Both the position numbers and the translations under genes were made by a program. A model generated the notes under the pieces. It was not told the origin of the DNA, made no database searches, and worked only from the letters and a program-made list of their open reading frames with translations. DNA of 35,186 nt, from NCBI GenBank assembly GCA_011390645.1, contig JAABRY010000024.1:1-35186 (forward strand). The letters run 5' to 3'. Origin of the DNA: Gemmatimonadota bacterium (lineage in GTDB: Bacteria; Gemmatimonadota; Gemmatimonadetes; Gemmatimonadales; GWC2-71-9). Every line of letters begins with the position of its first letter. The first letter of the stretch is position 1. Below, in pieces: positions 3,884-19,991 of this stretch.

Positions 3884-3893
3884 CAGCGAGCGG

Positions 3894-3989
3894 CGATTGG
3901 TGATTGGCGATTGGTGATTGGTGTCTTGCGGGCGGGAGTCGCACGATTCCTCGGAATCGCCAATCGCCAATCGCGAATCGTCAGTCGCC
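3894..3989. repeat. Inverted heptamer-repeat element A (GATTGG / CCAATCG)
   Basis: Four 7-base units of the form YGATTGG run head to tail at 3894-3921. After a 33-base gap, five units of the form AATCGCC/G run at 3955-3989. The second block is the inverse complement of the first (CCAATCG against CGATTGG), so the transcript could fold into a long imperfect hairpin. An extra short palindrome (GATTCC, two bases, GGAATC) lies in the loop. The element fills much of the 184-base gap between the YceI gene and aspA. It has no CRISPR-like spacers. Confidence 0.8.
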
Positions 3990-4067
3990 AGTTTACCCCT
4001 CTTGCCCTCGCGACTAGGTTCCCCCCGGCCTCCGGGCCGGAACCCTGAACCAGGACGCGAGCACGCC

Positions 4068-5489: not shown

Positions 5490-6676
5490 CTGACGCCGCG
5501 GCAGGGCGATGGGGTCGGCTGATCCTCCTCGCCCTGGCGATGGTCGGCGGCATGTCCCCCTGGCTCGCGGGGAGTGCCGCCGCGCCAGTGCTCGCCGCCG
5601 ACCTCGGCCTGATGCCAGGCGAGATCGGCTGGCTCACCTCCGCCACGCAGCTCGGCTTCGTGGCGGGGACCCTCACGCTCGCGATGCTCAACCTGGCCGA
5701 CATCCTCCCCGGACGTCGTCTCTTTGCGTTGGCGGCCACGGCCACCGCGGTCGCGAATGCGACGATGTTGCTCGCCGATGGGATCGCACCGCTCCTCGCC
5801 TCGCGCTTCATCACCGGGTTGGCGATGGCGGGTGTCTATCCGCCCGCGATGAAGATGGCCGCGACCTGGTTCGTCGCACGTCGCGGACTCGCGATCGGCA
5901 GCATCGTGGGGGCACTCACGCTCGGCAAGGCCTTCCCGTATCTCCTGCATGGCGTGGACGAGCTCGCCCTCGCCCCGATTGTGCTCATCCCGTCGGCGGC
6001 CGCGCTGCTCGGCGCGATCGCGGTGGGCACCACCTGGCACGATGGCCCGCATGCGTTTCCCTCGCGGCCGTTCTCGTGGGGGCTCGTGGGCGAAGTGGTG
6101 CGTGAGCGCGAGCTTCGCCGGGTGACGGGCGGCTACCTCGGTCACATGTGGGAGCTGTATGCCTTCTGGGCGTGGGTCCCCGGCTTCCTGGGCGCGGCGC
6201 TGGCTGCACGCGGTGCGCCGGGCGGCGGCGAGTGGACCATCGCGTTTGCGGTGGTCGCCATCGGCGCGGTGGGCTGCATCGGGGGTGGCTGGCTCGCGGA
6301 TCGGTATGGGCGCCGCACGGTCGCCAACGGCGCGATGATCACGAGCGGGACGCTTGCGCTGCTCTCACCGGCGCTCTTCGTGCTGCCGACCTGGATCCTG
6401 GTGGCGGCGCTCCTGCTCTGGGGCGTTGCCGTGATCGCCGATTCGGCCCAGTTCTCTGCACTCGCCACGGAAGTGGCACCCTCGCACGCTGTGGGCACGG
6501 CACTCGCGCTGCAGACGTCGCTGGGCTTCCTGCTCACGATCGCGAGCATCCAGCTCGTGCCCGTGCTGGTTGACGGGGTCGGCTGGCGGTGGGCGCTGGC
6601 GATGCTTGCCCTCGGGCCAGCGCTGGGGGTGGCGTCATTGGGGTGGGGGCGAAGGCATGTAGGTCGCAGGTCATAG
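5486..6676 (+). CDS. MFS transporter
   Basis: Major facilitator superfamily permease of 396 residues with about 12 hydrophobic segments. A motif-A-like loop, GWLADRYGRR, is near residue 268, between the presumed helices 8 and 9; the equivalent in the first half is degenerate. The start is GTG at 5486, in a GTGA overlap with aspA, so the two are probably cotranslated. Coupling to aspartase suggests transport of a dicarboxylate or amino acid such as aspartate or fumarate, but this is inferred only from position. The last codons (ending R-R-S) are encoded by a heptamer-repeat element that begins before the stop codon. Confidence 0.85.
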   Translation: MTDAAAGRWGRLILLALAMVGGMSPWLAGSAAAPVLAADLGLMPGEIGWLTSATQLGFVAGTLTLAMLNLADILPGRRLFALAATATAVANATMLLADGIAPLLASRFITGLAMAGVYPPAMKMAATWFVARRGLAIGSIVGALTLGKAFPYLLHGVDELALAPIVLIPSAAALLGAIAVGTTWHDGPHAFPSRPFSWGLVGEVVRERELRRVTGGYLGHMWELYAFWAWVPGFLGAALAARGAPGGGEWTIAFAVVAIGAVGCIGGGWLADRYGRRTVANGAMITSGTLALLSPALFVLPTWILVAALLLWGVAVIADSAQFSALATEVAPSHAVGTALALQTSLGFLLTIASIQLVPVLVDGVGWRWALAMLALGPALGVASLGWGRRHVGRRS

Positions 6677-6785
6677 GGGCCGACAGGTGAAACGTCAAAG
6701 GTGAAACGGGAGGCGGTGACCGCCTGTATTCCGTTTCACCTTTCACCTTTCACCACTCCACGACCTCCGACCTACGACTGACGAC
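6660..6785. repeat. Nested inverted heptamer-repeat element B
   Basis: Reading left to right: TAGGTCG, CAGGTCA and TAGG (6660-6677), then AGGTGAA, ACGTCAA, AGGTGAA (6685-6705), a compact palindrome AGGCGGT-G-ACCGCCT, then three TTTCACC units (6734-6754), then CCACGAC, CTCCGAC, CTACGAC, TGACGAC (6758-6785). The inner GGTGAAA block is the inverse complement of the TTTCACC block, and the outer TAGGTCG block is roughly that of the CTACGAC block. The element sits between convergent genes and contains both stop codons, so it could serve as a two-way terminator. Confidence 0.8.
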
Positions 6786-7326
6786 TTCCTCCCCCACTCA
6801 GCCCCTGCAAGAAGAACCCCGCCAATGCCGCCCGTCCGTCCAGCCCGGACTTGTCGTAGATGCTGACGGCATGCTGCCGGACCGTGCGTTCGCTGCGGCC
6901 CGTCCGCTCGGCGATTTGCCGATGTCCGACGCCCTGCAGGAGGAGGAACGCAATCTCCCGTTCGGTTGGGGTCAGGGCCCAACGCTCCATCTGGGCCTCG
7001 ACAGCCGTTCGCATGCTCTGAAGCGCGTCCTCAGCCGTGGTCTGCCACTCTCGTCGTTCGGTCTCTCGGGCCTCCAGGCTCCGGCGCGCACCGCGCAGCT
7101 CGGCCGACACGTCGCGCCAGCGAAGCCAGAGGGTGCTTGCCAAGGTGATACTGGTCGCGACGAGTGCCAGCTCGAGCACAACGTGAGCTGACAACCAACT
7201 CGTCGGTTCGTCGAGCAACAGATCGACGATCCCGCCGACCCCGACCAAGGCGAGGACGACCATCACGACCCGGTCGAGGGGGCGGACATCGGCGTCGCGA
7301 TCGTCGGGGACTGATGATTCTGGCAT
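6772..7326 (-). CDS. Membrane-anchored LuxR-type transcription regulator
   Basis: A 184-residue protein. Residues ~20-38 and ~46-69 form two hydrophobic helices. Residues ~70-115 are charged and likely a coiled coil. Residues ~118-173 form a LuxR/GerE helix-turn-helix (LTPTEREIAFLLLQGVGHRQIAERTGRSERTVRQH, in pieces). There is no receiver, PAS or autoinducer domain, so the membrane hairpin itself may be the input module. It is divergent from the DUF2231 gene across a 148-base gap, and that gene is its most obvious candidate target (inference). The stop codon and last residues are encoded within repeat element B. Confidence 0.8.
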   Translation of the reverse strand: MPESSVPDDRDADVRPLDRVVMVVLALVGVGGIVDLLLDEPTSWLSAHVVLELALVATSITLASTLWLRWRDVSAELRGARRSLEARETERREWQTTAEDALQSMRTAVEAQMERWALTPTEREIAFLLLQGVGHRQIAERTGRSERTVRQHAVSIYDKSGLDGRAALAGFFLQGLSGGGSRQS

Positions 7327-7377: not shown

Positions 7378-7474
7378 TGGTGTGCTGCGGGGAAAGGCCC
7401 GACCTTGTCCCCACCAATCGGAACCGCTGATGCCACGCTGGCATGAGGCCGACGTTCCGCACAAGGAGGCCGAC

Positions 7475-7978
7475 ATGTGGTCCACTCTATTGCCCGAACC
7501 CCTTCATGCGGCTGTCGTGCATCTGCCGATGGCGCTGGCTGTCCTGCTCCCACTTGCTGCCGTGCTCGCCTTGGCCGCGATCAAGCGCGGCGCCGCTCCC
7601 AGGCCGACCTGGGGTGTGATGGTCCTGCTGGTCGCGATGCTGATCGGCTCTGGCCTGGTCGCCAAGGAGACGGGGGAAGACGGTGAGGACCGTGTGGAAC
7701 AGCTCGTACCAGAGGGTGCTCTCGAAGCCCACGAGGAGGCCGCGGATCGCTTCCTTGTGGTCGGGGCAGTGGTGCTGCTGGTGAGTCTGCTCGGATTGCG
7801 ACGTGACCGGCTCGGCGGCGGCGCGCGCATCGCGACGACCCTCGGAACGCTTGCCGTGCTGGCAGCGGGTTGGTCGGTCGGTCATGCCGGCGGCGAGCTG
7901 GTGTACCGCTACGGCGGGGCGGCGGCGTACGCCGGGCCTGCCGCGGCGCAGGGGACGCTGGAGCGGGGGGAGGATTGA
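7475..7978 (+). CDS. DUF2231 family membrane protein
   Basis: A 167-residue inner-membrane protein with four predicted helices (about residues 14-36, 46-63, 92-108 and 117-137). The N-terminal LHAAVVHLPMALAVLLP with its conserved histidine, and the H-rich loop EAHEEAADRF before the third helix, match the DUF2231 pattern. Members of this family are often linked to redox or haem proteins, but the function is not settled. The ATG at 7475 is strongly supported by AAGGAGG at 7463-7469; longer upstream starts would be outside the conserved domain. It is monocistronic and is followed by repeat element C. Confidence 0.8.
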   Translation: MWSTLLPEPLHAAVVHLPMALAVLLPLAAVLALAAIKRGAAPRPTWGVMVLLVAMLIGSGLVAKETGEDGEDRVEQLVPEGALEAHEEAADRFLVVGAVVLLVSLLGLRRDRLGGGARIATTLGTLAVLAAGWSVGHAGGELVYRYGGAAAYAGPAAAQGTLERGED

Positions 7979-7984
7979 TATAGG

Positions 7985-8140
7985 GTCGTAGGTCGTCGGT
8001 CGTAGGTCGTAGGCCGTAAGTCGTGGGTCGTATGGGCTGTTGGATACTGGATGCCGGATGCTGGGGGTCGCCGAACAACGATCGGCCCCCTCACCCCTAG
8101 CCCAACACAGGGTGGCCAACTACGACCTACGACCTACGAC
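7985..8140. repeat. Inverted heptamer-repeat element C (GTCGTAG / CTACGAC)
   Basis: Seven 7-base units of the GTCGTAG type run without a break at 7985-8033, with variants GTCGTCG, GCCGTAA, GTCGTGG and GTCGTAT. The exact inverse, CTACGAC, is repeated three times at 8120-8140. About 86 bases separate the arms. The CTACGAC heptamer also occurs once in element B, so the two loci share a repeat family. This element fills most of the 207-base gap between the DUF2231 gene and the Rrf2 gene. Confidence 0.8.
8042..8064. repeat. Short heptamer run (GGATGCT type) inside element C
   Basis: GGATACT, GGATGCC and GGATGCT follow each other at 8042-8062 and end in GG. This is a different 7-base unit with the same period as the flanking GTCGTAG run, in the loop between the two arms. 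No inverted partner was found nearby. Confidence 0.6.
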
Positions 8141-8150
8141 CTTCCACCCC

Positions 8151-13871: not shown

Positions 13872-14541
13872 ATTGATTGTGGCGCTGGACCTCCCCGATG
13901 CGCAGAGTGCCGTGGCGTTGCTCGACCAGTTGCCGGAAGGGTGCCCGGTCAAGATCGGCTCGGTCTTGATGACCCAAGCGGGAAGTGGCTTCGTGCGAAC
14001 CCTTGTGGCCCATGGCCACCCGGTCTTCCTCGACCTCAAGTGGCACGACATTCCGAACACCGTTCGCGGGGCCGTGAGTGCCGCGGCTGACCTCGGGGTG
14101 GAGATGGCGACCATCCATGCCCTCGGGGGTGCTGCGATGGTCGAGGCGGCCGTTCAGGCCGCCGCGGGACGACTGAAGCTCGTCGCGGTGACGGTCCTGA
14201 CCTCGCACGACCCGGCAGGCTTCGCCGCTGCCACGGGCCATGCCACGGTAGATCTCGGGGACGCCGTCTCCCGTCTCGCGCGCCTGGCGATGGCGGCCGG
14301 CGCGGATGGGGTGGTGTGCTCGGCCGCCGAGCTGCCCATCGTCGGGCCAATCGTTGGTGCAGGCCGCATTGTGGTGCCCGGCATTCGACGGGCGGATGAC
14401 GGGGCAGGGGACCAGCACCGGGTGGCCACTCCGGAGGCCGCCGCGTCGGCTGGGGCGACGCATCTGGTGGTCGGACGCCCGATTCTCGAGGCCCCAGACC
14501 CCTCCGCGGCCTGGGCGGCGTTCCGGCAGGCGGCCGGCTGA
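13864..14541 (+). CDS. pyrF: Orotidine 5'-phosphate decarboxylase
   Basis: Last step of UMP synthesis. The protein has 225 residues, normal for the short bacterial form. The catalytic motif is D57-L-K59-W-H-D62 within [12 protein letters not shown]. The start IVALDLP and the phosphate-binding end [15 protein letters not shown]...LVVGRPI are typical. GTG at 13864 starts directly on the conserved beta strand and overlaps pyrD by eight bases; a longer open frame from 13651 is a shadow of pyrD. It forms a pyrDF pair at the end of this operon, ahead of the ribosomal promoter. Confidence 0.93.

Positions 14542-17975: not shown

Positions 17976-19991
<2,016 letters not shown>

Follow-up and report, generated by a model that had tools for sequence, protein, structure and literature searches.

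The window, by which we mean the whole 35,186-nucleotide stretch of DNA analysed, is one contig of a 2.93 Mb Gemmatimonadota assembly (86% complete, 295 contigs). Three elements, A, B and C, lie among ordinary genes, namely those of YceI, fumarase, an MFS protein, a LuxR-type regulator, a protein without a Pfam match and Rrf2. The elements share one anatomy: a G-rich or purine-rich arm is followed, after a variable loop, by a C-rich one, both arms being tandem arrays of a single 7-bp unit, and the loop may contain another pair nested inside or a hairpin resembling a terminator. The features are as follows.

3892..3923, + strand: element A, G-rich arm, GGTGATT/GGCGATT units (GATTGGY)
3955..3990, - strand: element A, C-rich arm, RCCAATC units, the inverse of the left arm of A
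6659..6677, + strand: element B, outer left arm (GTAGGTCGCAGGTCATAGG), degenerate GGTCGTA units that do not reach the TRF threshold and that pair in the fold
6686..6706, + strand: element B, inner left arm, GGTGAAA/CGTCAAA/GGTGAAA, paired in the fold
6734..6754, - strand: element B, inner right arm, three TTTCACC units
6760..6787, - strand: element B, outer right arm, ACGACCT/CTACGAC units, common to element C
7984..8032, + strand: element C, G-rich arm, seven GGTCGTA units, 49 bp, 80% matches by TRF
8042..8062, + strand: element C, loop units GGATACT GGATGCC GGATGCT, of the GGATGTT family, unpaired in C
8120..8142, - strand: element C, C-rich arm, 3.3 CTACGAC units, exact

Element A starts 8 bp past the stop codon of the YceI gene (gene end 3883) and element C (7984-8142) starts 5 bp past that of the gene spanning 7430-7978. 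Element B (about 6659-6787) spans a convergent gene junction and is nested, with GGTCGTA-type units outside and a GGTGAAA/TTTCACC pair inside; its outer left and outer right arms overlap the 3' ends of the MFS gene and of the convergent luxR-type gene, respectively. Strong hairpins are predicted on both strands for all three elements (z -3.9 to -7.8): the RNA fold of element A (3884-4000) has an MFE of -66.4 kcal/mol (z -6.9 compared to dinucleotide shuffles), that of element B (6660-6795) -62.2 on the + and -75.5 on the - strand (z -6.3 and -7.8), and that of element C (7979-8150) -85.6 and -86.5, respectively (z -4.4 and -6.2). According to the original prediction, GTCGTAG is repeated seven times in element C; TRF does find 7.0 units (80% matches), however, just three of them are exact GTCGTAG. 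The three CTACGAC copies claimed for the same element are present as 3.3 exact copies in the right arm, and CTACGAC recurs in element B (at about 6771-6777), as had been said. The GGATGCT-type unit noticed in the loop of C has period 7 (8042-8062), however, its inverse partner is absent from C; the GGATGTT family forms paired arms elsewhere in the genome. Element C has 108 matches genome-wide.

Period 7 (together with 14 and 21) is the sole period above the array score in the window. In an unselected sample of 488 kb of the same genome, chosen by contig number, we found 59 period-7 arrays as opposed to 0-3 for each of the other periods between 2 and 30 that are not multiples of 7, while Markov-simulated sequence of equal dinucleotide make-up contained none. 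The claim that one period is kept by differing units thus stands both in the window and in unselected sequence, period 7 alone being in excess. Extrapolated by proportion, the whole genome would hold about 450 period-7 arrays, most of which are arms of palindromes, about 60-200 bp long, that lie between genes. The units do differ, as originally stated, but to call them unrelated goes too far: read on the G-rich strand, 55 of the 59 arrays can be rotated to GGNNNNN, with GGYGANN accounting for about half of the arrays (GGTGAAA, GGTGAAC, GGTGAGG, GGCGAAC, GGCGATT and GGTGATT), the other large group comprising GGTCGTA/GGTCGTT and GGATGTT. This single genome has about ten units, many of them nested within one another or joined in phase. 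Some arrays switch unit in phase, for example from CAATCGC to CCGTTCA (L047 4527-4598) and from GGTCGCA to GGATGTT (L071 16547-16606), so that the unit changes while the register stays. An Rfam search returned only sub-threshold chance matches to microRNAs. Separately, an almost perfect array of 24 GGGGTGA copies (L068:2246-2415, 170 bp) would lend itself well to strain typing or to tests of slippage.

The placement of the arrays was analysed in 680 kb not chosen for arrays, where a slightly lower cut-off yielded 104 of them; genes were called by a codon-usage script, the calls of which were checked on the window. Outside genes, in 8% of the bases, lay 94 of these arrays (overall, about 90% of arrays in 8-9% of bases). 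Neighbouring arrays at most 200 bp apart were convergent, with the G-rich strand first, in 25 cases, same-strand in nine and divergent in none. In 21 of 26 elements the outermost arms shared their unit family, compared to 7.6 expected (permutation p<1e-4), which bears out the pairing of arms as inverse complements that the original prediction had proposed to check. Among gaps of at least 80 bp, the fraction with an array was 12/25 for convergent, 34/124 for co-directional and 4/42 for divergent gaps (convergent versus divergent, p=7e-4). In co-directional gaps the element starts at a median of 6 bp past the upstream stop codon and ends 69 bp before the next start, and 30 of 37 elements are nearer to the stop than to the next start (p=1e-4). 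In elements of co-directional gaps, the 5' and the 3' arm do not differ in how often G has changed to A; selection for G-U wobble pairs in the sense RNA was rejected on the grounds of this symmetry. A Rho-rut reading, prompted by the 7-nt spacing of the C-rich arm, was also set aside, since that arm is the second of the two and the hairpin would sequester it.

Congeneric species carry period-7 arrays made of other units: GAGAGAA, GGAGAAA, GGGAACA and GAGTCGT in G004, GAGAGAC in G005, GGAGAAG in G009 and GGCTATT in G001, the last of which also has matches to GGTGAAA pairs; no period-7 array was found in 70 kb of G008. The units devoid of GG (GAGAGAC, GAGAGAA and GAGTCGT) keep the same layout. 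In G004 the gene order of the window is conserved and none of the A, B and C arrays is present, the gaps at the three loci being about 88 bp, none and 57 bp versus 184, 95 and 207 bp in the window. Three convergent gene pairs have palindromes in both the genome of the window (G000) and G004 with different units, GGTGAAA or GGTCGTA in the former and GAGAGAA or GAGAAAG in the latter; at one of these three junctions G006 has GGTCGTT. Two junctions were read in all species: a non-heptad hairpin is found in G003 and G009 at one and in G006 and G009 at the other, and hardly any gap (0-24 bp) is left in other species, such as G005, G007 and G008, which implies that these junctions can do without a hairpin. 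In G003, at the junction orthologous to L024:6956-7059 (L222), where heptad palindromes are found in other species, lies an intergenic hairpin of 180 bp that is not built of heptads and has a predicted energy of -99 kcal/mol. Across the orthologous gaps of G000 and G004, arrays were present in both genomes in 5, in G000 only in 6, in G004 only in 3 and in neither in 47 (p=0.003); when only the long gaps are considered (4/10 versus 2/17, p=0.15) significance is lost, so that replacement of the unit in place between species is suggested, not proven, by these comparisons.

A phylum-wide probe, a BLAST search with the known units and with hexamer and octamer controls that detects only the units queried, found intergenic heptad arrays in many genera (five convergent, none divergent); matches were also obtained with some of the hexamer controls, mostly at loci without period-7 arrays. 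A further reading would be a phylum-wide 3'-end element that is not defined by its sequence: the place, the purine-first palindrome and the period of 7 would be kept, and the unit would be replaced genome-wide in each species, as the palindromes of G000, G004 and G006 at shared gene pairs suggest. We put this forward tentatively, as a possible but on balance doubtful extension. A single GGTCGTA palindrome fills the gap between two convergent genes in a Geobacter MAG (JACOUQ010000017.1, L121:1037-1130), in the genome of which no second GGTCGTA palindrome was found.

In long GGTCGTA arrays variant units occur in runs, and the runs differ between the two arms of one element, such as in L025 2091-2278, where AGTCGTA is present five times in the left arm versus twelve TATGACC units in the right one. 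The lengths of the two arms of an element are not correlated in either of the two large families, and an arm pairs with its own partner no better than with the arm of another element. Mirror copying of one arm from the other was rejected, as own partners paired no better than swapped ones; uncorrelated lengths and the lack of an own-partner advantage fit independent slippage in each arm. We infer that strand slippage would lengthen and shrink the arms in 7-bp steps, whereby variant units would spread locally and the unit would drift between species. Of the two causes originally offered for the common period, a shared mechanism of growth is thus supported in the form of local 7-bp growth by the runs of variant units, while hairpin length as the selected quantity finds no support in the uncorrelated arm lengths and the pairing results. 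A neutral version of the same process may be considered, in which replication in this phylum slips by a preferred step of 7 and functionless arrays survive where they are harmless, behind stop codons; according to a proposal cited in PMC4692102, the stretch of DNA held in the polymerase active site sets the slippage step. Neutral slippage would account for a period of 7 whatever the unit in several species, for the local runs and the independently growing arms of uncorrelated length and for the many junctions without an array. Slippage alone, however, yields neither two inverse arms of the same family (21/26 versus 7.6) nor an absolute convergent polarity (25 versus 0), nor the common cores and arm-enclosed terminator-like hairpins described below, and we consider a purely neutral origin rather unlikely, albeit the best of the alternatives.

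About 20 GGTGAAA elements have a common core of about 56 nt (the GGCACACC...GCGATGGTG motif; L154-L181), which might represent an RNA with a structure of its own or else a core that is mobile. Many GGTGAAA elements have the same arm register, GTGAAACGTGAAAGGTGAAAGG and its exact inverse, and the homology between them stops where the arms stop. In L076, two nested elements at a distance of 4.3 kb (14377-14505 and 18674-18801) are nearly identical. About one-third of the GGTCGTA pairs (about 11 of some 30 loops) enclose a GGCCGG-type hairpin, rare outside the arms, that is flanked by an A-rich 5' side and a U-rich but interrupted 3' tail and the stem of which is kept through two-sided changes (GGCCGG/CCGGCC, AGCCGGC/GCCGGCT and GCCGAC/GTCGGC). 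Most GGTCGTA loops are unrelated to one another, and a U tract is absent from most elements. The common cores and the enclosed hairpins imply that some elements spread as composites, and whole elements would now and then be copied into new gaps. The original prediction had favoured a shared mechanism of growth over a single mobile repeat; as an either/or this fails, since two subfamilies have a common inner core and arm register at many loci and whole-element copying has therefore occurred too.

Two further dispersed repeats were seen in these gaps. The inverted repeat GTCATTCCGAGCGAAGG...CGAGGAATCTGCACG, together with its inverse, often lies between heptad arms (L047:2825-2958, L047:4384-4564, L069:18154-18368 and L018:9724-9929), and a similar repeat is present in G006 at an orthologous junction. 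A third palindrome, CCGGCGGTTGACACCGCCGGCTG and its inverse, lies in the same intergenic gaps (L071:16570-17051, L059:4227-4506, L047:2825-2958 and L080:4988-5237).

Mobile DNA of the REP/REPIN or MITE kind, in which the heptad arms would be terminal inverted repeats moved by a transposase without any function for the host, is consistent with whole elements sharing core and arm register at about 20 loci, with the L076 near-copies, with the lack of elements amid the conserved gene order of G004 and with a placement like that of REPs (PMC3733652). It is at odds with the absence of Y1_Tnp (RAYT) from the array-bearing, nearly complete genomes G001, G013 and G051, with the sole Y1_Tnp copy of G000 having no array within about 1.5 kb, with the mutually unrelated loops of most GGTCGTA elements and with the lack of a target-site duplication signal (common words in the 12-nt flanks 2.72 versus 2.73 for permuted pairs). 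We regard this explanation as unlikely. Less likely still is that GG every 7 nt on the strand by which transcription leaves the gene forms quadruplexes or stabilises an RNA-DNA hybrid past the stop codon. Two-G tracts with 5-nt loops, the pattern seen here, are weak quadruplex formers, and the GG-free units of the relatives (GAGAGAC, GAGAGAA and GAGTCGT) leave the layout unchanged; for this explanation speak the G-rich strand coming first with no divergent exception, the presence of GG in almost all units, GGGGTGA arrays of up to 24 copies and the quadruplexes formed in vitro by the Xanthomonas and Nostoc repeats (PMC4692102). A telomerase-like enzyme that writes arrays from a 7-nt template would agree with the constant period under a changing unit and with the G-rich strand polarity, but it is most improbable, and an RVT_1-type reverse transcriptase in that role is refuted, as no RVT_1 match was obtained in any of nine genomes, of which eight are nearly complete and the majority have arrays. 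Neither RAYT nor reverse transcriptase is required for the arrays.

Work cited in PMC4692102 drew attention as early as 2007 to an excess of heptamers in bacteria, with neither a cause nor a function put to the test. The nearest known kind is the GGGAATC heptamers of Xanthomonas (Rehm et al. 2015), which are intergenic, lie near stop codons in 2 to 26 copies, form convergent pairs (70 in Xcc and 75 in Xac), are rare between divergent genes and change in length between species; in Xac these G4-type repeats are, compared to control repeats, rarer in the middle of transcripts and commoner at their starts or ends (PMC4692102). The elements described here resemble them in the over-represented 7-bp period, the GG-rich strand, the convergent pairs, the vicinity of stop codons and the rarity between divergent genes. 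The Xanthomonas study dealt with one unit type, whereas here about ten units are present in one genome, often nested or fused, with other units in each relative and with common cores. The three-tetrad quadruplex capacity of GGGNATC is not found either, as most units have just GG. Given this and the GG-free units of the relatives, the elements would work like the GGGAATC family without being literally members of it.

Dispersed intergenic tandem 7-mers are likewise known as the STRR of cyanobacteria, as GGGGA(C/T)T in Nostoc and as TAACTGA in Beggiatoaceae (PMC4679880). The Nostoc repeats have few inverted pairs (PMC4692102), unlike the paired arms found here, and TAACTGA lies upstream of start codons (PMC4679880), whereas our arrays lie behind stop codons. 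The account of Geobacter metallireducens in PMC2700814 gives GGGACCG in four copies at 49 places and class 3 sites composed of five heptamers (MTYCTGA), which in that account are read as regulator or RNA elements and occur within genes as well. REP and REPIN palindromes are scattered over gene 3' ends, in many cases less than 20 bp from the ends of convergent genes, and are presumed to form hairpins (PMC3733652, PMC3116915). The elements share with them the 3'-end placement and the convergent junctions; REPs, however, are palindromes of 20-40 bp tagged with GTAG or CGTC, the GTAG type being tied to RAYT, whereas the elements have heptad arms of varying units. Only the GGTCGTA family happens to contain GTAG, and the target-site duplication of MITEs is not seen. 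What is new is the many units with a common GG register in one genome, a layout that stays constant although the unit differs between species, and the common cores.

Several observations point to termination or a barrier at the 3' end: where the elements lie, how they are laid out, their terminator-like cores and the data on Xanthomonas transcripts. A transcript leaving a gene from either side would meet the purine-rich arm and then the pyrimidine-rich arm, folding into a long hairpin. Such a hairpin would most likely be a bidirectional 3'-end element that terminates transcription or blocks read-through or 3' exonucleases, or at least one that is best tolerated there; the placement behind stop codons fits the mere tolerance of insertions at these sites as well. 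We propose, with a confidence that we put at about even, that A, B, C and their kin are palindromes dispersed over gene 3' ends that fold into hairpins and probably serve as terminators or barriers in both directions, their arms growing by 7-bp slippage.

At stake is whether the number seven comes from the polymerase, by mutation, or from the product, by selection, and whether the palindromes end transcripts. Since the unit differs between species, sequence-based repeat libraries would miss such repeats. A genus in which the species have heptamers of their own in the same layout, some of them between the same genes, makes the question of seven directly testable.
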